Below, in pieces: positions 139 through 14,531 of a DNA stretch of 64,000 nucleotides. The notes under the pieces are model-generated. The model searched no databases and was not told the origin of the DNA. It worked only from the letters and a program-made list of their open reading frames with translations. A program made the translations under genes and the position numbers. The stretch spans positions 558,001 to 622,000 of the forward strand of contig NZ_PDBX01000001.1 in NCBI RefSeq assembly GCF_002564105.1. Reading direction: 5' to 3'. Each line of letters starts with the position of its first letter. Position 1 is the first letter of the stretch. The stretch comes from Collimonas sp. PA-H2. Lineage in GTDB: Bacteria; Pseudomonadota; Gammaproteobacteria; Burkholderiales; Burkholderiaceae_D.

Positions 139-609
139 TTACAGGAAACGATCCAGTATCTTGCGGCTGGCCTTGTCCAGCGCCTGCGTATCGCGGATCA
201 GGAACTGCACGCCGTGGCTGTCGGCGATCAGCAGGCTGGTCGCCACGATACGGCGAATATCCTCTTCGCCCTTGAGCGTGAAAGAGGCATCGCCGCGATT
301 GGTTTCCACATACCAGATGCTAGGCGCGGTATAGCTGGACACCCTCTGGATGCGCTTGATTTCCGGCATGAACTCGCGGCTGGCAAGTTCTTTTTCGACC
401 ATCGCCCGGGTCTCATCCGGCAAATCCGACAAGCGGCTGATCCAGGACAGTTCGTGGCCGTCGGCGCTGACCAGCGACAAGCCGTCGTCCGGCGCGCCAA
501 TCGGAAAGGCCCGCACCGGCACCACCCCTTCATGCACCGCGCCATCGGCGGCGGTATACACCAGGCGGCCGAAAGCGTTGCGGCTTAATTTGAAATCATG
601 TGTCGTCAT
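139..609 (-). CDS. DUF1854 family protein, cyanophycin-locus associated
   Basis: A 156-aa soluble protein with no signal peptide or membrane segment. Central sequence such as 'VSADGHELSWISRLSDLP' and the 'RIQRVSSYTAPSIWYVETNRG' stretch fit DUF1854, a family of unknown biochemical role that is regularly found beside an ABC exporter and cyanophycin synthetases in Burkholderiales (recalled family knowledge, not searched here). Its ATG (607-609) overlaps the stop of the upstream ABC gene in an ATGA arrangement, so the two are translationally coupled and probably work together. An accessory role for the transporter is my inference. Confidence 0.8.
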   Translation of the reverse strand: MTTHDFKLSRNAFGRLVYTAADGAVHEGVVPVRAFPIGAPDDGLSLVSADGHELSWISRLSDLPDETRAMVEKELASREFMPEIKRIQRVSSYTAPSIWYVETNRGDASFTLKGEEDIRRIVATSLLIADSHGVQFLIRDTQALDKASRKILDRFL

Positions 610-2924
610 ACGTTCTCTTCGCTGTCTTCATCGACCAGTTGCGGCTCGCCTTCGCCTTCGGGATTACGCAACTGCGCCTGGTACAGGCGGTAGTAGGCGC
701 CTTCGCGCAGCATCAGTTCGTCATGGCTGCCGACTTCGACGATCTGGCCGCGGTCCAGCACCACCAGGCGGTCGGCCTTGCGCAAGGTCGACAGGCGGTG
801 CGCGATCGCAATCGTGGTGCGCCCCTGCACCAGATTATCGAGCGCTTTCTGGATTTCTTTTTCGGTTGTTGTATCCACCGACGAGGTGGCCTCGTCCATG
901 ATCAGGATGCGCGGATCGATCAGCAGCGCGCGCGCGATCGAAATACGCTGGCGCTCGCCGCCCGAGAGCGCCTGGCCGCGCTCGCCGACCAGCGAGTCAT
1001 AGCCTTGCGGCAGGCGCAGGATGAATTCATGGGCATGGGCGGCACGGGCGGCGGCGACGATTTCCTCGCGCGTAGCCTCGGGCTTGCCGTAGCAGATGTT
1101 CTCGGCGATAGTGCCGAAGAACAGGAACGGTTCCTGCAGAACCAGGCCGATATTGCGGCGGTATTCCGAGATCGGCATAGCCCGGATATCGACGCCATCG
1201 ATGCGTATCGATCCTTCCGAGACGTCGTAGAAGCGGCAGATCAGGTTCACCAGTGTGCTCTTGCCGGAACCGCTGTGCCCGACCAGGCCGATCATCTCGC
1301 CCGGCTTGATGTCCAGATTGACGCCGCGCATCACGGCCCGGTTGCCGTAGCGGAAACCGATGTCGCGCAATTCGATGGCGCCCTTGACGTTTTCCAGATG
1401 GACCGGATTGGCCGGCTCGGGAACACTGGAGACGTGATCGAGAATCTCGAAAATACGCTTGGCGCCGACCGCCGCCTTTTGCGTCACCGAGACAATCCGG
1501 CTCATCGAATCGAGGCGGGTATAGAAACGGCTGATATAGGCCAGGAACGAGGCCAGCACACCGACCGTGATTTCATTCTTCGAGACCTGCCAGATACCGA
1601 ATACCCAGACCACCAGCAGCCCGATTTCGGTCAGCAAGGTCACCGTCGGCGAAAACAGCGACCAGATCTTGTTGACACGGTCGTTGACCAGCAGGTTGTG
1701 CTGGTTGGCGTCGCGGAAACGCGTGGCTTCGCGCTTTTCCTGGGCGAAAGCCTTGACCACCCGGATGCCGGGGATAGTGTCGGCCAGCACATTGGTGACT
1801 TCGGCCCAGATGCGGTCGATCTTTTCAAAACCGTGCTTGAGGCGGTCGCGCACCAGGTGGATCATCCAGGCGATGAACGGCAACGGCACCAGGGTCACCA
1901 GCGCCAGCCACGGGTTGATCGAGAACAGGATCACCGCGGTCATGATGATCATCAGGACGTCGATGGCGAAGTCCAGCAGATGCAGGGAGAGGAAAACGCA
2001 GATGCGGTCGCTTTCCGAACCGATGCGCGCCATCAGGTCGCCGGTGCGCTTACCGCCGAAATATTCCTGCGACAGGCGCAACAGGTGTTCATAGGTGGTG
2101 GTGCGCAGATTGGCGCCGATGCGCTCGCTGACCAGCGCCAATATATAGGTGCGGGCCCAGCCCAGGCTCCAGGCCACCAGCGCGGAAGCCAGCAGTCCGG
2201 ACAGATACAGCTTGACCAGATCGGTATTGATGGGCTTGCCGTTCTGATAAGGAATCAGCACATTGTCCATCAAGGGCCCCATCAAATAAGGCGGCACCAG
2301 AGTGGCGGCGGTAGAAATCAGCATCAGCACGAAACCCAGCAGCAGCATGCCCTTGTAAGGCGTGGCGAAGCGCGCCAGGCGGAACAAGGCCCAGGTCGAC
2401 GAAGGCGCCGCGCTTTTTTCGGGACAGATCAGGCATTCCTCGCTGTCCGCGGGCAGCGGCGCACCGCATTGAGGGCAAGTGGCCTGCTCTTCGCGCAGGG
2501 CCGAACGCCCCGCCAGCCGGTCGTCGCGCTGCTGCTCAAAGACCTTGATCAGGCGCAGCGCATCGAGATTCAAGCCCAGCGTATAGCGCCAGCTTGCCAG
2601 CTGCTGTTGCTCGTCATATAACTCCAGGCTGCCGACGCCGGCATGATCGTGATGACCAAGCTTGAGGCCGGAGCGGTAGCTCCAGTCGCGCCAGCTGCTG
2701 TCGTCGGCCATCTTGGCCAGTACGCGCTGATTGGTGACCAGCACCAGCCCTTGCGCAAAATGCAGCGAGGCGTTGAGATCGATTGCCAGGGACGCAAGGA
2801 TTTCCTCGGCCGGGGCAAGCTGAGTTATCACTTCGGCACGTAAAGCGGCAGGTATTGCAGCGGGTAAATTATGTGATAAATAATTACCGGCTCGGGATAT
2901 TGGGGATATTGGGTTGCTTTTCAT
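606..2924 (-). CDS. ABC exporter, fused permease/ATPase, cyanophycin-locus associated
   Basis: A 772-aa half transporter. Residues 1-145 form an unusual soluble N-terminal domain, followed by a zinc-ribbon-like CxxC-x10-CxxC motif (C150, C153, C164, C167), then a type-I exporter transmembrane domain (about 185-480). The ATPase domain has Walker A GHSGSGKST (near 550), signature LSGGERQ (near 655) and Walker B ILIMDEATSS (near 673). It resembles MsbA/lipid or peptide exporters but the N-terminal extension and its setting, divergent from two cyanophycin synthetases, match the class described as cyanophycin-metabolism-associated. The substrate is unknown. Upstream is the shared divergent region 2925-3340. 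It is coupled to the DUF1854 gene by a 4-bp overlap. Confidence 0.85.
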   Translation of the reverse strand: MKSNPISPISRAGNYLSHNLPAAIPAALRAEVITQLAPAEEILASLAIDLNASLHFAQGLVLVTNQRVLAKMADDSSWRDWSYRSGLKLGHHDHAGVGSLELYDEQQQLASWRYTLGLNLDALRLIKVFEQQRDDRLAGRSALREEQATCPQCGAPLPADSEECLICPEKSAAPSSTWALFRLARFATPYKGMLLLGFVLMLISTAATLVPPYLMGPLMDNVLIPYQNGKPINTDLVKLYLSGLLASALVAWSLGWARTYILALVSERIGANLRTTTYEHLLRLSQEYFGGKRTGDLMARIGSESDRICVFLSLHLLDFAIDVLMIIMTAVILFSINPWLALVTLVPLPFIAWMIHLVRDRLKHGFEKIDRIWAEVTNVLADTIPGIRVVKAFAQEKREATRFRDANQHNLLVNDRVNKIWSLFSPTVTLLTEIGLLVVWVFGIWQVSKNEITVGVLASFLAYISRFYTRLDSMSRIVSVTQKAAVGAKRIFEILDHVSSVPEPANPVHLENVKGAIELRDIGFRYGNRAVMRGVNLDIKPGEMIGLVGHSGSGKSTLVNLICRFYDVSEGSIRIDGVDIRAMPISEYRRNIGLVLQEPFLFFGTIAENICYGKPEATREEIVAAARAAHAHEFILRLPQGYDSLVGERGQALSGGERQRISIARALLIDPRILIMDEATSSVDTTTEKEIQKALDNLVQGRTTIAIAHRLSTLRKADRLVVLDRGQIVEVGSHDELMLREGAYYRLYQAQLRNPEGEGEPQLVDEDSEENV

Positions 2925-3340: not shown

Positions 3341-5497
3341 ATGAAAAACATTGAAATTCTCCGTATCATGTCCCTGCGCGGACCGAATATATGGACGTAT
3401 AGATCAACCCTTGAGGCGTGGATCGACATAGGCGAACTGGAAGATTTCCCCTCCAATACCCTGCCCGGCTTCAACCAGCGCCTGACCGGCTGGCTGCCAT
3501 CCCTGATTGAACACCGCTGCAGCTACGGCGAACGCGGCGGTTTTGTACAGCGCCTGCAAGACGGCACCTGGCCTGGCCACATCCTCGAACACGTCACCCT
3601 GGAACTGCAAAACCTGGCCGGCATGCCGGGTGGTTTCGGCAAGGCCCGCAGCACTTCAGTGCGCGGCGTCTATAAAGTAGCAGTGCGGGCGCGCCACGAA
3701 GAAGTCACCCGCGCCGCCCTGCACGCTGCGCGCGACATGGTGATGGCCGCGATTGAAGACAAGCCGTTCGACGTCCCCGCCACTATCGCTTCGCTGCGCA
3801 CCATGGTCGACTCGCGTTGCCTGGGCCCCAGCACCGCCTGCATCGTCGAAGCCGCGGACGAACGCCGCATCCCCTCTTTCCGCTTGACTGACGGTAACCT
3901 GGTGCAGCTCGGCCACGGCATCCGCCAGCGCCGCATCTGGACCGCAGAAACCGACCAGACCAGCGCCATCGCCGAAAGCATCTCCAGCGACAAAGACCTG
4001 ACCAAGACCCTGCTGCAAGCCTGCGGCGTACCGGTGCCGGAAGGCCAGGTCGTGGAAAGCCCGGAAGAAGCCTGGGAAGCGGCGGAAGACATCGGCCTGC
4101 CGGTGGTGGTCAAGCCCACCGACGCCAATCATGGCCGCGGCGTCTTCATCGACCTCAATACCCGCGAAGAAATCGAAACCGCCTACACGCTAGCGCTGGA
4201 AGAAGGCAGCAGCGTGATCGTCGAGCGCTTCATCCGCGGCAACGAACACCGCCTGCTGATCGTTGGCGGCCGCCTGGCAGCCGCTGCTCGCGGCGAGCCC
4301 TTGTCGGTAACGGCCGACGGCAGCTCCACCATCTTGCAACTGATAGAAAGCCAGATCAATTCCGATCCGCGCCGCGGCGAGCTGGAAGAATGCCCGCTCA
4401 GCCTGGTGCTGCTGGACCAGGAACCAGTGGTGCGGGTTGAACTGGAACGCCAGGGTTACAGCGGCGATTCGATTCCACCGGCCGGCAAACAAGTACTGAT
4501 ACAACGCAACGGCAATGTTTCGATCGACGTCACCGACCTGGTGCATCCGAGCGTCGCCGCTGCCGCCTCTCTGGCGGCGCGCGTGGTCGGCCTGGATATC
4601 GCCGGCGTCGACCTGGTGGCGGAAGATATTTCCCGTCCGCTGGAAGAACAGCGCGGCGCCATCGTCGAAGTCAACGCCGGCCCCGGCCTGCTGATGCACC
4701 TGAAGCCGGCCGAAGGCCGGCCGCGCCCGGTCGGCAGAGCCATTATCGAACATCTGTTCGCCGCTGCCGACAATGGCCGCATCCCTATCGTCGGCGTCTC
4801 CGGCACCCACGGCAAAACCACCGTCTCGCGCCTGATCGCGTGGCAGCTGCACCTGAGCGGCAACCATGTCGGCCTGGCTTGCGGCGACGGCCTCTATTTC
4901 GCCCAGCGCCGGGTGGAAAAAGGCGATTGCGCCAACTGGGAATCGGCGCAACGGGTGCTGATCAACCGCGCGGTGCAAGCAGCTGTCTTTGAAAACAGCC
5001 ACGACACTATCTTGTCGGAAGGCCTGGTGTATGACCGCTGCCAGGTTGGCGTGGTCACCAACATCGCCGCCAACGACAGCCTGCCGCAGTACTACATCGG
5101 CGACGCCGAGGAAATGGTGAAAGTCACCCGCACCCAGGTCGACGTCGTGCTGCCGACCGGCGTCGCGGTGCTGAACGCCGCCGATGCGCTGGTGGCCGAC
5201 ATGGCGTCGCTGTGCGACGGCGAAGTGATTTTCTTCGGCATCGATCCTGCCCTGCCGGTGATTGCCGAGCATCTCGAAAAGAACAAGCGCGCGGTGTTCA
5301 TCCGCAACGACCAGATCATGCTGGCCACCGGCAAGAATGAACTACTGCTGGCGGATATCACCACCGTGCCGCTGATTAGCCGCAGCAAGGATCGCTTCCA
5401 GATAGAAAACGTGCTGGCGGCGGTTGCCGCGGCATGGGCGCTGGACATCTCGCACGACTTGATGCGCGCCGGGATTGAAACTTTCGAGATGACTTAG
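3341..5497 (+). CDS. cphA': cyanophycin synthetase-like protein CphA' (short form, no Mur C-terminal domain)
   Basis: 718 aa. Domain order: N-terminal CphA domain opening with 'LRIMSLRGPNIWTYR', ATP-grasp domain (about 215-470), then the central Mur-ligase-type domain with P-loop GVSGTHGKTT (near 487). The protein stops at 'AGIETFEMT', exactly where its neighbour CphA continues into the Mur C-terminal domain, so the whole third domain is absent. Two Mur motifs present in CphA are also changed: ETARGGI is ENSHDTI here, and GMGDHLG is AANDSLP. The reading frame is otherwise intact and long, so this is a distinct enzyme class and not a pseudogene. It probably keeps only the ATP-grasp ligase chemistry. 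The start at 3341 fits the family N-terminus, though no clear Shine-Dalgarno is present. cphA follows after 63 bp. Confidence 0.9.
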   Translation: MKNIEILRIMSLRGPNIWTYRSTLEAWIDIGELEDFPSNTLPGFNQRLTGWLPSLIEHRCSYGERGGFVQRLQDGTWPGHILEHVTLELQNLAGMPGGFGKARSTSVRGVYKVAVRARHEEVTRAALHAARDMVMAAIEDKPFDVPATIASLRTMVDSRCLGPSTACIVEAADERRIPSFRLTDGNLVQLGHGIRQRRIWTAETDQTSAIAESISSDKDLTKTLLQACGVPVPEGQVVESPEEAWEAAEDIGLPVVVKPTDANHGRGVFIDLNTREEIETAYTLALEEGSSVIVERFIRGNEHRLLIVGGRLAAAARGEPLSVTADGSSTILQLIESQINSDPRRGELEECPLSLVLLDQEPVVRVELERQGYSGDSIPPAGKQVLIQRNGNVSIDVTDLVHPSVAAAASLAARVVGLDIAGVDLVAEDISRPLEEQRGAIVEVNAGPGLLMHLKPAEGRPRPVGRAIIEHLFAAADNGRIPIVGVSGTHGKTTVSRLIAWQLHLSGNHVGLACGDGLYFAQRRVEKGDCANWESAQRVLINRAVQAAVFENSHDTILSEGLVYDRCQVGVVTNIAANDSLPQYYIGDAEEMVKVTRTQVDVVLPTGVAVLNAADALVADMASLCDGEVIFFGIDPALPVIAEHLEKNKRAVFIRNDQIMLATGKNELLLADITTVPLISRSKDRFQIENVLAAVAAAWALDISHDLMRAGIETFEMT

Positions 5498-5560: not shown

Positions 5561-8131
5561 ATGGACGTATCACGTATCCGAGTACTTCGCGGCCCCAATC
5601 TGTGGAGTCGACATACCGCTATTGAAGCCATTGTGTCCTGCACCGAAGCCGAGCGCGCCATTGCCGGCATCGCCGGTTTCGAGGCCAAGCTGCGTGAACG
5701 CTTTCCACAAATCGGTTTCCTGGAGGCGACCGGCAAGAACGAAGTGGTGTCCATGGCCCATGCCCTGGAAATCGCCGCGCTTGGGTTGCAGTCGGAAGCC
5801 GGTTGTCCGGTCACCTTCAGCCGCACCGTACCGACGCTGGAAGCCGGCGTCTATCAGGTGATCGTCGAATACAGCGAAGAAGAAGTCGGCCGGCTGGCTT
5901 TCCAGCTGGCGCAGGAGCTGTGCCTGGCGGCGCTGGCGGACCAGCCTTTCGACCTAGCAAGCGCATTGGCGCGCCTGCAGGAACTGGATGAAGACATCCG
6001 CCTCGGCCCTAGCACCGGCTCCATCGTGCAAGCCGCGGTATCACGCGGCATTCCATTCCGCCGCCTGACCGGCGGCAGCATGGTGCAGTTCGGCTGGGGC
6101 AGCCGCCAGCGCCGCATCCAGGCTGCGGAAACCAATCACACCAGCGCCATCGCCGAGTCGATCGCGCAAGACAAGGACCTGACCAAGAAGCTGCTGAACG
6201 CCGCCGGCGTGCCGGTGCCTATGGGGCGCGTCGTTTCCACTGCCGAAGAAGCCTGGGCCGCGGCCCAGGAAATCGCTAGCCCGGTGGTGCTCAAGCCGCG
6301 CGACGGCAACCAGGGCAAAGGCGTGGCAGTCAACATCACCGCGCGCGAGCAGGTCATGGCGGCTTTCGCCGTGGCTTCCGAAATCTGCTCGGAAGTGATC
6401 GTCGAACGCTACCTGCCCGGCCATGACTTCCGTCTGCTGGTGGTCGGCAACCATCTGGTAGCTGCGGCCCGCCGCGATCCTCCGCAAGTGATCGGCGACG
6501 GCGTGCGCACCATCCGTCAGCTGGTAGACCATGTCAACAGCGATCCGCTGCGCGGCGAAGGCCATGCCACCTCGCTGACCAAGATCCGCTTCGATGCGAT
6601 CGCCCTGGCGACGCTGGCGAAACAGAATTACGCTGCCGACTCGGTGCCGCCGCAAGGCACGCGCGTGGTGTTGCGCAACAATGCCAACCTGAGCACCGGC
6701 GGCACTGCCACCGACGTCACCGAAGATGTGCATCCGGAACTGGCGGCGCGCGCCGTTGCGGCCGCGCAGATGGTCGGCCTCGATATCTGCGGCGTCGACG
6801 TGGTCTGCAACAACGTCCACCAGCCGCTGGAAGAACAGGAAGGCGGCGTGGTCGAAGTCAACGCCGCGCCCGGCCTGCGCATGCATATCAGTCCTTCGTA
6901 CGGCAAGGGCCGCGCGGTCGGCGCCGCCATCATGTCAACCATGTTTGAAGACGGCGACAATGGCCGCATTCCGCTGGTCGCGGTAGCTGGCACCAACGGC
7001 AAGACCACCACCGTGCGCCTGATTGCCCACCTGCTGGGCCGCAAAGGCCTGCGCGTCGGCATGACCAATTCGGACGGCGTCTACATCGAAAAGCAACGCA
7101 TCGACACCGGCGACTGCAGCGGTCCGCGCAGCGCCCGTAATGTACTGATGCATCCGGACGTCGACGCCGCGGTATTTGAAACCGCGCGCGGCGGCATCCT
7201 GCGCGAAGGCCTGGGTTTCGACCGCTGCGACGTCGCCGTAGTCACCAATATCGGCATGGGCGACCATCTCGGCCTGAGCTTCATCAGCACGGTGGAAGAC
7301 TTGAGCGTGGTCAAACGCGTCATCGTCGAAAACGTCGCGCCTGCTGGTCATGCGGTCCTGAACGCCGCCGATCCGATGGTGGCCAGCATGGCCAAAGCCT
7401 GCCCGGGTTCGATCACCTTCTTCGCCCATGATTTCCATCACCCGCTGATGACCACCCATCGCGCCCAGGGCCATCGAGTGGTGTATCAGGACGGCAACGC
7501 CATCGTCGCCGCCAAGGGCAAGCAGGAACACCGCCTGCTGCTGCAGGAAATCCCGTTGACCCGCAACGGCAGCATCGGCTTCCAGGTCGAGAACGCCATG
7601 GCCGCCATCGCCGCCGCCTGGGCCTTGAATCTGGACTGGGATGTGATACGCGCCGGCCTGGCCAGCTTTGTCAACGATGCCGCCACAGCGCCCGGCCGTT
7701 TCAATGTATTCGAGTATCGCGGCGCCACCCTGATCGCCGACTACGGCCACAATCCGGACGCCATCCAGGCGCTGGTGAAGGCAATCGACAGCATGCCGGC
7801 CAAACGCCGCTCGGTAGTCATCAGCGGCGCCGGCGACCGCCGCGATATCGATATCCGCCACCAGACTGAAATCCTGGGCGAGGCCTTCGATGAAGTGATT
7901 CTTTACCAGGACCAGTGCCAGCGCGGCCGCGCCGACGGCGAAGTGCTGGGCCTGTTGCGCGAGGGCTTGAAGAATGCCCGACGCACCACTGCCATCGAGG
8001 AAATCAACGGCGAATTCATCGCCATCGATACTGCGTTGTCGCATCTGTCGCCAGGCGATTTGTGCCTGATCCTGGTCGACCAGGTGGAAGAAGCGCTGGA
8101 ACATATCGCCAAGCGTATTGCGGAAGTCTAA
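5561..8131 (+). CDS. cphA: cyanophycin synthetase CphA (full length)
   Basis: 856 aa, the usual length. It polymerises Asp and Arg into multi-arginyl-poly-aspartate (cyanophycin), a cytoplasmic nitrogen store, using ATP. The N-terminal domain begins 'IRVLRGPNLWSRHTAIE'. The ATP-grasp domain (about 215-470) carries aspartate ligation. The Mur-type domain has P-loop GTNGKTTT (near 478), ETARGGIL and the DHLG motif. The C-terminal domain begins at GRFNVFEYRG (near 710), includes DYGHNPDA and supports Arg ligation. An AGGA Shine-Dalgarno lies about 9 bases before the ATG. It is in an operon with cphA' and followed by two large hairpins. No cyanophycinase (cphB) gene lies in the window. Confidence 0.96.
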   Translation: MDVSRIRVLRGPNLWSRHTAIEAIVSCTEAERAIAGIAGFEAKLRERFPQIGFLEATGKNEVVSMAHALEIAALGLQSEAGCPVTFSRTVPTLEAGVYQVIVEYSEEEVGRLAFQLAQELCLAALADQPFDLASALARLQELDEDIRLGPSTGSIVQAAVSRGIPFRRLTGGSMVQFGWGSRQRRIQAAETNHTSAIAESIAQDKDLTKKLLNAAGVPVPMGRVVSTAEEAWAAAQEIASPVVLKPRDGNQGKGVAVNITAREQVMAAFAVASEICSEVIVERYLPGHDFRLLVVGNHLVAAARRDPPQVIGDGVRTIRQLVDHVNSDPLRGEGHATSLTKIRFDAIALATLAKQNYAADSVPPQGTRVVLRNNANLSTGGTATDVTEDVHPELAARAVAAAQMVGLDICGVDVVCNNVHQPLEEQEGGVVEVNAAPGLRMHISPSYGKGRAVGAAIMSTMFEDGDNGRIPLVAVAGTNGKTTTVRLIAHLLGRKGLRVGMTNSDGVYIEKQRIDTGDCSGPRSARNVLMHPDVDAAVFETARGGILREGLGFDRCDVAVVTNIGMGDHLGLSFISTVEDLSVVKRVIVENVAPAGHAVLNAADPMVASMAKACPGSITFFAHDFHHPLMTTHRAQGHRVVYQDGNAIVAAKGKQEHRLLLQEIPLTRNGSIGFQVENAMAAIAAAWALNLDWDVIRAGLASFVNDAATAPGRFNVFEYRGATLIADYGHNPDAIQALVKAIDSMPAKRRSVVISGAGDRRDIDIRHQTEILGEAFDEVILYQDQCQRGRADGEVLGLLREGLKNARRTTAIEEINGEFIAIDTALSHLSPGDLCLILVDQVEEALEHIAKRIAEV

Positions 8132-10842: not shown

Positions 10843-11544
10843 TCATTGGGAAAGCAGGATGCGGTAGCCAACCGCGGTCTCGGTCAGCAAATGCTTGGGC
10901 TGGGCCGGATCGTCTTCCAGTTTCTGCCGCAAGTGTCCCATATAAATCCGCAGGTAGTGGCCGCTCTCGGAATGCGACGGTCCCCATACTTCTTTCAGCA
11001 ATTGCGGGTTGGTCACCACCCGTCCTGCATTGGCGACCAGCACCGTCAGCAGGCGGTACTCGGTCGGCGTCAGGTGCACCGGCTGCTGCGCCTTGGTGAC
11101 CAGCCGCGCCTGCAAATCCAGCGTGACGTCGCCAAAGCGGATCAGGCCGTCGTCGCCGGCCAGCGGCTGGTGCTGCCGGCGCAGCGTGGCGCGCACCCGC
11201 GCCAGCAGCTCGCCGACGCCAAACGGCTTGCTCAGGTAATCGTCGGCGCCTGCATCCAGCGCCTTGATCTTGTCGGCTTCATTGCCCCGCGCCGACAGCA
11301 CGATGATGGGTACGCGCGACCATTTCCTGACATCCAGGATGAAATCGACGCCGTCGCCATCCGGCAAGCCGAGGTCGAGAATCACCAGGTTGGGCTTGCG
11401 GGTGCCGCAATCTATCAGGCCCCGCTGCATGGTCTGCGCCTCAAAGATCTGCCAGCCTTCATCTTCCAGCGCAGCGCGCACAAAGCGCCGTATCTGCGGT
11501 TCGTCTTCGACCAGTAATGCGATCGGGGTTGGTTGCGTCGTCAT
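10843..11544 (-). CDS. kdpE: KdpE, OmpR-family response regulator of potassium uptake
   Basis: 233 aa. The receiver domain has the acidic pair EDE near residue 15, the phosphoacceptor Asp in LVILDLGLPDGDG (near 57) and the conserved Lys in DYLSKPFG. The C-terminal winged helix (about 130-230) has 'VHLTPTEYRLLTVLVANAGRVV' and ends 'TETAVGYRI'. Activated by KdpD under potassium limitation, it turns on the kdp operon. Its ATG overlaps the kdpD stop (ATGA), so the sensor and regulator are coupled. A phased repeat upstream of the operon (20345-20392) is its likely target. Confidence 0.96.
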   Translation of the reverse strand: MTTQPTPIALLVEDEPQIRRFVRAALEDEGWQIFEAQTMQRGLIDCGTRKPNLVILDLGLPDGDGVDFILDVRKWSRVPIIVLSARGNEADKIKALDAGADDYLSKPFGVGELLARVRATLRRQHQPLAGDDGLIRFGDVTLDLQARLVTKAQQPVHLTPTEYRLLTVLVANAGRVVTNPQLLKEVWGPSHSESGHYLRIYMGHLRQKLEDDPAQPKHLLTETAVGYRILLSQ

Positions 11545-14333
11545 GTTTTCTCCGTATTGCCTGTATTGCCGATGCCATTGCCTGCTACATCCATCCTGAG
11601 CTCATGCTCTTCCAGATCGGGCATGCTGGGCGGTGTCCCGAGCGGGATGGTAAAGATGAACTCGGCGCCGACGCCATGGGCGCCGCGGGCGTGGATGGTG
11701 CCGCCGTGCGCTTCCACGATCGCACGGCAGATCGCCAGTCCCAAACCGACGCCGGGCTTGGCCGATTCGCGCTCGCCGCGCGTGAATTTCTCGAATATGG
11801 CGTCTTCCATGCCGCTGGGTAGCCCGGGGCCGTCATCCGATACCGTGACCGCCAGCAAGCGCCCATTCACCACCGCCGCCAACACGATATGCGAACCGGG
11901 CGGCGTGTACTTGGCGGCGTTTTCCAGCAGGTTGCACAGCACGCGCTCAATCAAGACCGCGTCGAAGCGGATCAGCGGCAGCTCATGCGACACCCGGATT
12001 TCTGTCTGATGCCCCAGCAATACCGAACCGCTGGCGCGCAGCGCACTGCCGACCACCTCTTCAAACGGTTGCCATTGCAGGTTCAGCTTCACCTCGCCGC
12101 TCTGGATCCTGGCCATGTCCAGCAGATTGGTGACCAGCGCGCTCATGCGCAGCATCTCGCTGTGCAGCGCGCCGGCCAGCAGCTGCTGGTTTTCCTGCAG
12201 CGGCGGCTTCGACAGCACCAGCGATTCGGATAAGCCGATCAGCGCCGTCAAAGGCGTGCGCAAATCGTGCGACAGCGCCGACAGCAGTGAATTGCGCAAG
12301 CGCTCCGATTCCATCCGCACCAGCGCGTCCTGCGCCACTTCGACATAGTGCACCCGTTCCAGCGCAATCGCAGTCAGGGTGGCGAAGGTATACAGCTGTT
12401 GCTGCTGCTCCGGGATCAGGATCCAGCGCCGGCTGTGCGGCAGGATCGCCAGCACGCCGCGGGTGCGCATCGGCGCCACCAGCGGCAGATACAGGTAATT
12501 ACTGGCCGGCAGCGTATCGGTGCCGATGCCGGCGCTGCTGGCATTGTCGAAGGCCCATTGGGCGATGCCCATGTCGAGCGCGGCGGCGACATTGACAACC
12601 TCCTCCGGAATCGCCGCCGGCAACTGCAAGCGGCCGGCATCGTCCGGTATCAGCAGCAAGGTCTTGGCCTGGAAACTGCGCTGCAGGAACTGGCGGCTGG
12701 TTTCAAATATCTGTTCGGTTTGCAAGACACCCGACAAGGCGCGGGCGAATTCGAATAAGGCGCGCGAACGCGCTTCACGATCAGAGGCAATGCGAGCCTG
12801 GTAGCGCAGACCGGTGGTCAGATGGGTGATCGTCAAACCCACCGCCAGCATCACGCCGAAGGTCAGCAGGTACTGGAAATCGCTGACGGCGAAGGAAAAG
12901 CGCGGCGGCACGAAAAAGAAATCGAAGGAAGCAATGCTCAGCAGCGCCACGAAAATCGCCGGCCCGCGGCCGTAGCGGATGGCGATCAGCACCTCAGCCA
13001 GCAGATACAGCATGACGATGTTGGCGAGGTCGAAAAACGGCAGTATCGGCGTCGCCAGCAAGGTGACCAATGCGCATACGCCGAGCGCCCAGCCGTAGCC
13101 CCACCATTCGATCCGGCTTTGCTTGGGCAGGTGGCGTGGAAAACTGCGGCCGGCGGCATCCTCTGCCTTGGCCGCCGCGCTGGCCGGCGGCACGCCGATT
13201 TCGATCAGGTCGATATCGCTGGCCTGAGCTGCGATGCGCGCGGCGTGATTCGGCTGCCAGGGAAACTGGCGCTGGCTGCGGCCGATGATGATCTTGGAAA
13301 AATTGTGGCTGCGCGCATAGCCTGCCATGACACCGGCGACATCGTTGCCCGCCAATACTGCCGTAGTGGCGCCCAGGTCCTGCGCCAGCTTGAGCGTCTT
13401 CAGGATGCGCTCGCGCCTGGCCGAGGGCAGCCGCTGTAATTTCGGCGTTTCGACATAGATCGCATGCCATTCGGCATTCAGCTGGGTCGCCAGCCGGGCC
13501 GTGCTGCGTATCACATGTTCCGCGTTGGGAGATGGTCCGACGCAGGCCAGCAGCGCGGCATCGGTTTGCCACACCGCGCCTATCGATTTTTCGATGCGAT
13601 AAGCCTGGACATCGCCCTGCAAGCGGTCGGCAGTGCGGCGCAAGGCCAGTTCGCGCAAGGCGATCAGATTGCCCTTGCGGAAAAAATTGCGCGAAGCGCG
13701 TTCGGCCTGCGGCAGCTTGTATACCTTGCCGAGCTTGAGCCGGTTGAGCAGCTCATCGGCCGGCAAATCCACCAGCACCACTTCGTCGGCCGCATCGAAT
13801 ACCGTATCCGGCAGGGTTTCCGCCACCCGGATGCCGGTGATGCCCCCCACTACGTCGTTCAGGCTTTCCAGATGCTGGACGTTCAGCGTGGTGAAAACGT
13901 CGATGCCGGCGTTCAGCAGTTCTTCCACATCCTGCCAGCGTTTTGGATGGCGCGAACCGGAAGCGTTGGAATGGGCTAGCTCGTCGACCAGGATCAGCGA
14001 CGGCTTGCGCTGCAGCGCCGCGTCCAGGTCGAATTCCGGCAGCTGCTTGTCGCGGTATTCCACCTGCTTGAGCGGCAGCAGCTCCAGGCCGTTCAGCAAG
14101 GCCGCAGTTTCCGCCCTGCCGTGGCTCTCGATAACCCCGGCCAATACCTCGCGCCCCTCGCTATGCAATTTATGCGCCGCGCTGAGCATGGCGTAGGTTT
14201 TGCCGACGCCGGCGGAAGCGCCGAAATAGATGCGCAACTTACCGCGTCCGGCCAGACTCTCCTGCACCTGCAGTTGCGCCAGCAAAGCGTCCGGATCGGG
14301 ACGCAGGTCGCCGTTTGAATTGGGTGAGGACAT
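11541..14333 (-). CDS. kdpD: KdpD, sensor histidine kinase for potassium / turgor
   Basis: About 930 aa. The N-terminal KdpD domain begins 'LRPDPDALLAQL' and holds a Walker A GASAGVGKT and Walker B LILVDELAHSN. A USP-like domain follows, then four transmembrane helices, a GAF-like region, the phosphoacceptor His in ALSHDLRTPLTAL, and the ATPase N-box NLLENAAKYTPPG with DDGPGLPSG and GVGLGLAICRAI. This is the full canonical architecture. I chose ATG 14333 because it places LRPDPD at the usual distance; an in-frame ATG at 14411 would add 26 residues of no family similarity. No good Shine-Dalgarno supports either. It lies about 200 bp after the TorF-like porin. Confidence 0.95.
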   Translation of the reverse strand: MSSPNSNGDLRPDPDALLAQLQVQESLAGRGKLRIYFGASAGVGKTYAMLSAAHKLHSEGREVLAGVIESHGRAETAALLNGLELLPLKQVEYRDKQLPEFDLDAALQRKPSLILVDELAHSNASGSRHPKRWQDVEELLNAGIDVFTTLNVQHLESLNDVVGGITGIRVAETLPDTVFDAADEVVLVDLPADELLNRLKLGKVYKLPQAERASRNFFRKGNLIALRELALRRTADRLQGDVQAYRIEKSIGAVWQTDAALLACVGPSPNAEHVIRSTARLATQLNAEWHAIYVETPKLQRLPSARRERILKTLKLAQDLGATTAVLAGNDVAGVMAGYARSHNFSKIIIGRSQRQFPWQPNHAARIAAQASDIDLIEIGVPPASAAAKAEDAAGRSFPRHLPKQSRIEWWGYGWALGVCALVTLLATPILPFFDLANIVMLYLLAEVLIAIRYGRGPAIFVALLSIASFDFFFVPPRFSFAVSDFQYLLTFGVMLAVGLTITHLTTGLRYQARIASDREARSRALFEFARALSGVLQTEQIFETSRQFLQRSFQAKTLLLIPDDAGRLQLPAAIPEEVVNVAAALDMGIAQWAFDNASSAGIGTDTLPASNYLYLPLVAPMRTRGVLAILPHSRRWILIPEQQQQLYTFATLTAIALERVHYVEVAQDALVRMESERLRNSLLSALSHDLRTPLTALIGLSESLVLSKPPLQENQQLLAGALHSEMLRMSALVTNLLDMARIQSGEVKLNLQWQPFEEVVGSALRASGSVLLGHQTEIRVSHELPLIRFDAVLIERVLCNLLENAAKYTPPGSHIVLAAVVNGRLLAVTVSDDGPGLPSGMEDAIFEKFTRGERESAKPGVGLGLAICRAIVEAHGGTIHARGAHGVGAEFIFTIPLGTPPSMPDLEEHELRMDVAGNGIGNTGNTEKT

Positions 14334-14531
14334 ATGCTTAACTGAGGATCCGGTAGGAGCTGCCGTTGTATGGGACAACTGATTTGTACGCCAATTGTAG
14401 ATTGAATTCATCTGCCGTCGCCACTATCGCATGCTATTTCAAGTTCCTGCCCGGTGGCGGCCACAAATGGCAACGACCGGAAGGTTTTACCCTTGTCGGC
14501 CACTGCTGCAGGAACAGCCAAGCAACAATAT

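Follow-up and report, generated by a model that had tools for sequence, protein, structure and literature searches.

Cyanophycin synthetases of the CphA1 type carry, in their N domain, a zinc-peptidase-like site (motif Cx19HxxEH) that cleaves cyanophycin to generate primers (Sharon et al. 2022, PMC9262961). The motif is present in 83% of the nr70 CphA1s, and some 20% of CphA1s, presumed functional once given a primer, are without the N site. In SuCphA1, the N domain is a slow endo-cyanophycinase that yields primers rather than dipeptides, and the E82Q exchange alone abolishes unprimed activity. The site also acts in trans: The isolated N domain of SuCphA1 renders the primer-dependent TmCphA1 primer-independent, and a SuCphA1 with dead G and M sites frees TmCphA1 from its primer as well. 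To the discoverers of the site, no second polymerase was known that has a site devoted to producing its primers (PMC9262961).

In several bacteria, neighbouring copies of cphA have been described: in Accumulibacter and other sludge taxa, where they lie with an ABC transporter and without cphB (PMC10687191), in Sideroxydans (PMC5178258), and in Ralstonia eutropha H16, where they appear in reviews citing Adames 2013. These copies are apparently the same gene pair as the one presented here; the pair itself is already known. In their available portions, however, these sources give neither an account of the active sites of each copy nor a mechanism. No account of a reciprocal split of the sites was found in the literature searched, largely open-access papers, and such an account may be in print. 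Here, we suggest a split cyanophycin synthetase with CphA' and CphA, a pair present in many burkholderia-type bacteria, as its two subunits, which would have originated from a tandem duplication with reciprocal loss; judged from the sequences, we give this reading a probability of about 0.62. The proposed arrangement resembles the laboratory construct of Sharon et al. (2022), in which the isolated SuCphA1 N domain supplies primers to a CphA1 lacking an N site. In contrast to that construct, CphA' and CphA would be a natural, genome-encoded version, with the hydrolase sitting on a degenerate synthetase body.

Sequences and numbering

The set analysed comprises 111 CphA', 107 CphA and 28 solitary CphA1-like rows, taken from 80 loci of titled records, the window and further genomes. 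From 379 relatives found with CphA' peptides, the best 80 were taken as loci L003-L082; of the further genomes, most were retrieved with a CphA bait and five with a CphA' bait. Since retrieval with CphA' peptides biases the sample, key counts were checked on the loci found with the CphA bait. All 111 CphA' and 107 CphA sequences are distinct, and 84 and 73, respectively, are left at 90% identity; the titled loci and the further genomes may repeat a species. Comparisons with 24 solitary rows leave out the divergent L114, L172, and L154_0 and L154_1, which form a second, broken locus in genome G626. The counts also leave out L001-L002, L083-L100, L115-L141 and everything from L186 onward, most of which duplicate other loci. 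Residue numbers are those of SuCphA1 unless a protein is named, the TeCphA1 reference row is 7wac (Trichodesmium), and trees were built with FastTree.

The locus and its occurrence

In the window, i.e. the whole stretch of 64,000 nucleotides of Collimonas sp. PA-H2 that was analysed (genome G000, 5.95 Mb), two co-directional open reading frames on the plus strand encode CphA' (3341..5497, 718 aa) and CphA (5561..8131, 856 aa), separated by 63 bp. CphA' of Collimonas humicola is 99% identical to that of the window. CphA' combines an N-domain hydrolase site with a remodelled ATP-grasp site and a degenerate Mur core without the Mur C-terminal domain. In CphA, the N-domain site is lost and H267 is replaced by Gln, and the aspartate pocket and the Mur ligase motifs are intact. 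Pfam finds Mur_ligase_M in both proteins and Mur_ligase_C in CphA alone. Both exceed the cut-off of the NCBIfam model NF010623 (CphA' with 1101.1 vs 877), whereas CphA' remains below that of the equivalog TIGR02068 (779.5 vs 850), which CphA passes. The predicted structure of CphA' (pLDDT 89.4), a single chain and as such silent on assembly, matches CphA1 chains first (7lgj, 7txv, 7lg5 and 7wae; TM 0.89-0.90) and then CphA2. Thus, CphA1 (SuCphA1, TeCphA1; NF010623/TIGR02068) is the closest known system in fold and sequence (CphA' model vs 7txv: TM 0.90 by model length, 40% identity). The domain order is the same, and the sites of CphA1 are all present but divided over two genes: CphA' differs from CphA1 by the lack of the Asp pocket, of the Mur site and mostly of the C-terminal domain, and CphA by the lack of the N site and by H267Q.

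Upstream of CphA' and divergent from the pair, the minus strand encodes an exporter-type ABC transporter of 772 aa (606..2924, NF052233) and a DUF1854 protein (139..609, NF052234, PF08909); "cyanophycin metabolism-associated" is the existing NCBIfam naming of both families. About 190 residues ahead of the membrane domain of the transporter have no Pfam match, and a CxxC...CxxC pair was spotted by eye in this protein. The DUF1854 protein has a predicted structure with a pLDDT of 89, for which no PDB match was found at E <= 0.001. In one locus (L040:7396-7863), the DUF1854 gene immediately precedes CphA' and has the same orientation, whereas the arrangement in the window is divergent. Downstream of the pair, at 10843-14411 of the window, genes for a response regulator and a KdpD-like sensor kinase were recognised by eye; they seem to be unrelated.

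The earlier note had considered CphA' as a structural partner of CphA, and the sequences support this part of it well: In 106/106 pairs the two genes are adjacent on the same strand with CphA' first, at a median distance of 41 bp (range -7 to 296, with trimmed starts), and the active-site losses are reciprocal. Among the paired loci with 3.2 kb or more of upstream DNA, 70/71 have both the ABC transporter and the DUF1854 gene beside the pair, with L042 as the exception. For pairs with less than 3.2 kb, the transporter gene is present in 30/34, and the DUF1854 gene in 8 of those 30. A search of 397 genomes of the phylum with a limit of E <= 1e-90 gave CphA matches in 37: 25 with the pair, 11 with solitary CphA1s, and G507 with a single gene of the pair clade. 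The 25 include G117, whose CphA' was recognised only on reading the locus; the pair of G767 was counted though its two genes end separate contigs. A pair-clade CphA occurs in 26 of the 397 genomes and CphA' in 25 of these 26; the sole genome without CphA', G507, has an N site of its own in its single CphA. In the same sample, DUF1854 is present in 26 genomes, the 25 with the pair and G507.

The N-domain zinc-peptidase motif

In CphA' of the window, the zinc-peptidase motif Cx19HxxEH is intact (3518..3592, plus strand), a feature absent from the earlier note. C60, H80, E83 and H84 correspond to C59, H79, E82 and H83 of SuCphA1. An alignment-free count finds the motif in 111/111 CphA' vs 0/107 CphA, and in 25/25 vs 0/25 in the loci found with the CphA bait. 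According to the alignment, the CphA N domain has lost the Cys segment and carries another residue at the second His. Solitary CphA1s have HxxEH and the aligned Cys in 24/24 each, and the exact x19 spacing in 10/24. Beyond the motif, H57, F67 and R70 are kept in all 111 CphA', and E87 and Y110 in 84/84 of the set that is non-redundant at 90%. In these 84 sequences, all seven N-site columns are invariant, as compared with 25 of the 160 N-domain columns (hypergeometric 1.0e-6, a value that takes columns as exchangeable, whereas active-site columns are conserved by nature). Moreover, CphA' has the lower N-domain dN/dS ratio of the two proteins in 7/7 groups, for example (CphA' vs CphA) 0.048 vs 0.099 in Collimonas and 0.047 vs 0.132 in Cupriavidus. 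In CphA' of G117 (L150), most ATP-grasp residues and the C-terminal domain are gone, and the N site is perfect. Since the N site has outlasted the ATP-grasp site in this protein, it looks indispensable among these genomes.

Of all parts of CphA', the hydrolase site is preserved best, and this also speaks for a different explanation: CphA' might mainly be the missing cyanophycinase, with an N domain that degrades stored polymer, and the adjacency of the genes would reflect a storage operon rather than a joint enzyme. Indeed, the Collimonas genome has no match to the S51 cyanophycinase family (PF03575, 0 matches; the same search was positive in 10 of 14 control genomes, in 8 of them over the cut-off), it has one isoaspartyl peptidase-like gene (PF01112), and only 2.8% of 903 betaproteobacterial genomes with CphA1 have a recognisable cyanophycinase (PMC10206079). 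We nevertheless regard this explanation as unlikely: The N domain of SuCphA1 is a slow endo-enzyme that leaves primers and not dipeptides (PMC9262961), and a pure hydrolase needs neither an ATP-grasp domain nor a Mur core, yet both are under selection in CphA', with dN/dS well below 1.

Complexes of an enzyme with a dead paralogue are common, and both ligase-related sites of CphA' are altered. This would fit a non-catalytic regulatory or structural subunit that has kept the N site for the binding of metal or polymer only. Such a role is very improbable in view of the residues that are retained: The general base E82 is present in 111/111 CphA' together with all metal ligands, the second-shell residue E87 in 84/84, and in SuCphA1 it is the loss of this base, in E82Q, that abolishes unprimed activity (PMC9262961).

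The ATP-grasp site

In TeCphA1, the incoming aspartate lies next to S396 and is bound through its beta-carboxyl group by R323 and N394 and through its alpha-carboxyl group by R458, and Ala at position 323, 394 or 458 impairs activity; H267 and R309 are thought to steady the acyl-phosphate (PMC9427784). Of the CphA1 set for aspartate addition (H267, R309, R323, N394, S396 and R458), CphA has all but H267, whereas the set is incomplete in CphA'. R323, N394, S396 and R458 are kept in 107/107 CphA, and in the window the aspartate-binding large loop of CphA is intact (ANLSTGG, 6683..6703, plus strand). H267 is replaced by Gln in 105/107 CphA, in the window within NQGKG (6308..6322, plus strand).

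The earlier note had stated that the ATP-grasp region remains in CphA'. This holds for the residues that handle ATP and the acyl-phosphate: The P-loop NHGRG (4127..4141, plus strand) contains the catalytic His equivalent to H267, and K220 (110/111), K261 (110/111), H267 (106/111), R309 (111/111), D431 (110/111) and E450 (109/111) are kept. It does not hold for the aspartate pocket, which is gone. In CphA' of the window, G318 in RGEP (4289..4300) replaces R323, the STGG of the large loop (396-399) is deleted at RNGNV (4505..4519), and in GLLMHLKP (4685..4708, all three on the plus strand) L451 replaces R458 and K455 stands at position 462, as in the two solved CphA2s. Across the set, R323 is changed to Gly in 109/111 and R458 to Leu in 108/111 CphA', residues 396-399 are deleted in 111/111, and N394 is kept in 101/111. 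Thus, the ATP-grasp domain of CphA' has the ATP and acyl-phosphate machinery without an Asp pocket, and it would therefore be either regulatory or a joiner of a different acceptor. In CphA' of R. eutropha, part of a "J-loop" is reportedly missing (Adames et al. 2013), and this may correspond to the deletion of the large loop; a literature search for this term together with cyanophycin synthetase found nothing.

The agreement with CphA2 at positions 458, 462 and 464 makes a new acceptor for the ATP-grasp domain of CphA' possible, and it bears on the proposal of the earlier note that CphA' is a convergent or related CphA2, which would polymerise beta-Asp-Arg dipeptides with its ATP-grasp site alone. 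CphA2 (7ta5, 8fxh) has likewise lost the Mur P-loop and the C-terminal lid (PMC9427784), the six ATP-grasp residues listed above are each kept in 106-111 of the 111 CphA', whose Mur site is degenerate, and CphA' and both solved CphA2s have in common the loss of R458 as well as K462 (107/111 CphA') and A464 (104/111). The comparison fails elsewhere: The solved CphA2s have R323, the large loop with S[SA]GG, and K267, whereas CphA' has Gly at 323 (109/111), lacks the loop (111/111) and retains H267. Moreover, the N-domain hydrolase motif is reported to be absent from CphA2s (PMC9262961) and is present in every CphA', and the CphA' ATP-grasp site has been ruined in L150 and shows damage in L146 and L149, all three with the N site retained. 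CphA2 and the CphA' model share 22-24% identity at TM 0.62-0.68 by model length. The K462 signal is in part a matter of sampling, one bait peptide having been MHLKPAEG; in the loci found with the CphA bait, K462 is present in 21/25 CphA' vs 4/25 CphA. On balance, a CphA2-like polymerase is improbable, and we keep it in play because K462 and the loss of R458 are common to CphA' and CphA2.

Position 267 offers a side observation. The only two CphA with H267, those of L146 and L149, occur exactly where CphA' has lost H267, as if the catalytic His might have been swapped between the subunits. Among the 106 pairs, five CphA' are without H267 and two CphA have it, both among these five (Fisher 0.0018, which ignores relatedness). 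With two events only, and with L150, L163 and L182 uncompensated, we take this as a hint and have rejected it as proof of coupling.

The Mur domain and the C-terminal lid

CphA has the full Mur set of CphA1 (GTNGKT, ETARGG and DHLG, and a lid with R731 and H748), whereas CphA' does not. E558, R561, D585 and H586 are intact in 105/105 CphA with letters at these positions; the other 2 of the 107 have gaps there. The Mur motif changes that the earlier note had read from the window stand, the exchanges of the two motifs being borne out by the alignment to SuCphA1: ENSHDTI (4991..5011, residues 551-557 of CphA') takes the place of ETARGGI (residues 540-546 of CphA), and AANDSLP (5066..5086, residues 576-582) that of GMGDHLG (565-571). 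The Mur P-loop of CphA' (4802..4822; all three on the plus strand) reads GTHGKTT, and therefore N497, which stacks on adenine in TeCphA1 (PMC9427784), is His. K499, D585 and H586 occur together in 0/100 short CphA', that of the window included, so the loss of the Mur motifs is not a matter of chance.

CphA' of the window indeed stops where CphA runs on into GRFNVFEYRG (CphA residues 712-721), and the Mur C-terminal domain is absent. This loss is not universal: Among the 111 CphA', the domain is absent from 98, cut by a contig end in two (L063 and L159) and kept in 11. The 11 long proteins come from Cupriavidus, Pandoraea, Bordetella, Achromobacter and two further genomes and form one clade (support 0.97); they keep GTNGKT and DHLG or DHMG, and have EN[DS]S instead of ETAR.

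Strict invariance in the Mur core of CphA' is confined to 11 of 235 columns, which include 603 and 607. In SuCphA1, these two M-domain positions reportedly make contact with the cyanophycin that occupies the N site (PMC9262961). The fixed part of the degenerate Mur core therefore includes the portion that serves the hydrolase.

Phylogeny and selection

In the tree of the G domain and Mur core with L114 left out, CphA' is monophyletic with a support of 1.0 and CphA with 0.98; together with L172 they form one clade (1.0) apart from the solitary CphA1s. Without L114, CphA' and CphA are each supported with at least 0.958 on every partition. With this divergent sequence, the support for CphA falls to 0.34 at full length, and that on the G domain alone to 0.28 for CphA' and 0.58 for CphA. 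The topology fits an origin of the pair by one duplication.

The possibility that CphA' is a decaying pseudogene was rejected because dN/dS is well below 1 in all three domains (N, G and Mur core) in 7/7 groups; the highest value in CphA' is 0.147 (7 groups, with dS saturated in g300).

L172 (G507:C9:1-11782) encodes a single CphA with the N site, Q267, the loop and the Mur motifs, beside ABC transporter and DUF1854 genes. It is possible that this is the state before the split. We do not use it as proof: The genome has 8% contamination, the gene runs off the contig, the DUF1854 gene has a stop, and the placement of L172 shifts, some partitions grouping it with CphA' (0.62 to 0.93) and the G domain alone grouping it with CphA (0.06 or 0.97, depending on the rows).

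A proposed split of the synthetase

Each chain has its own set of intact sites, the adjacency of the two genes is fixed, and each domain is under selection. From these data we infer that the N site of CphA' is active, that CphA' and CphA assemble, that they make cyanophycin, and that aspartate addition by CphA tolerates Q267. A CphA1 with three sites would have undergone tandem duplication followed by reciprocal site loss. CphA would elongate the chain, with aspartate added by its ATP-grasp and arginine by its Mur domain; having lost the N-domain hydrolase, it should depend on primers. The hydrolase of CphA', with its C-H-H metal site and Glu base, would cut nascent cyanophycin into these short primers. 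A mixed oligomer is probable, in which the Mur core of CphA' would act as scaffold.

Several points count against a split synthetase. No cyanophycin was detectable when the native genes of R. eutropha H16 were overexpressed at home or expressed in E. coli (PMC8560796, PMC11362209). H267A serves as the mutation that inactivates the G site of SuCphA1 (PMC9262961), and Q267 in CphA might therefore be a defect rather than a tolerated change. CphA1s without an N site are taken to work when primed, and thus CphA need not need CphA'. Finally, CphA' keeps more catalytic residues in its ATP-grasp domain than a pure hydrolase and scaffold would need.

It is tempting to speculate that CphA', CphA, the ABC transporter and the DUF1854 protein form a unit that does not serve storage, although we consider this rather unlikely. 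The split synthetase would build Asp-Arg chains, the N domain of CphA' would trim them to a set length, its ATP-grasp domain would join or cap the pieces, and the transporter would export the short peptides. If true, this would explain both the missing cyanophycinase and the undetected cyanophycin in R. eutropha.

If the split synthetase is real, a lineage in which the N site has moved to a second gene would put the primer model to a natural test. The split would also account in concrete terms for the lack of cyanophycin from the betaproteobacterial cphA genes that were tried in R. eutropha, and provide a candidate for the hydrolase that seems to be missing in these bacteria.

Further cphA-related loci

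Two other loci came up in the survey. L188 (G626:C1:5338000-5352000) is a second, different cphA locus with two adjoining CphA-like genes, one of them broken across frames; both have NQGKG, and an adjoining open reading frame looks cyanophycinase-like by eye. In L186 (G018:C1:6500-22500), a stretch of 13 kb contains the genes of four ATP-grasp proteins (589-641 aa) that are related to CphA1/CphA2; reading frames that look phosphatase-like and glycosyltransferase-like by eye lie between these genes, and G018 has three further ATP-grasp proteins of this type on other contigs.
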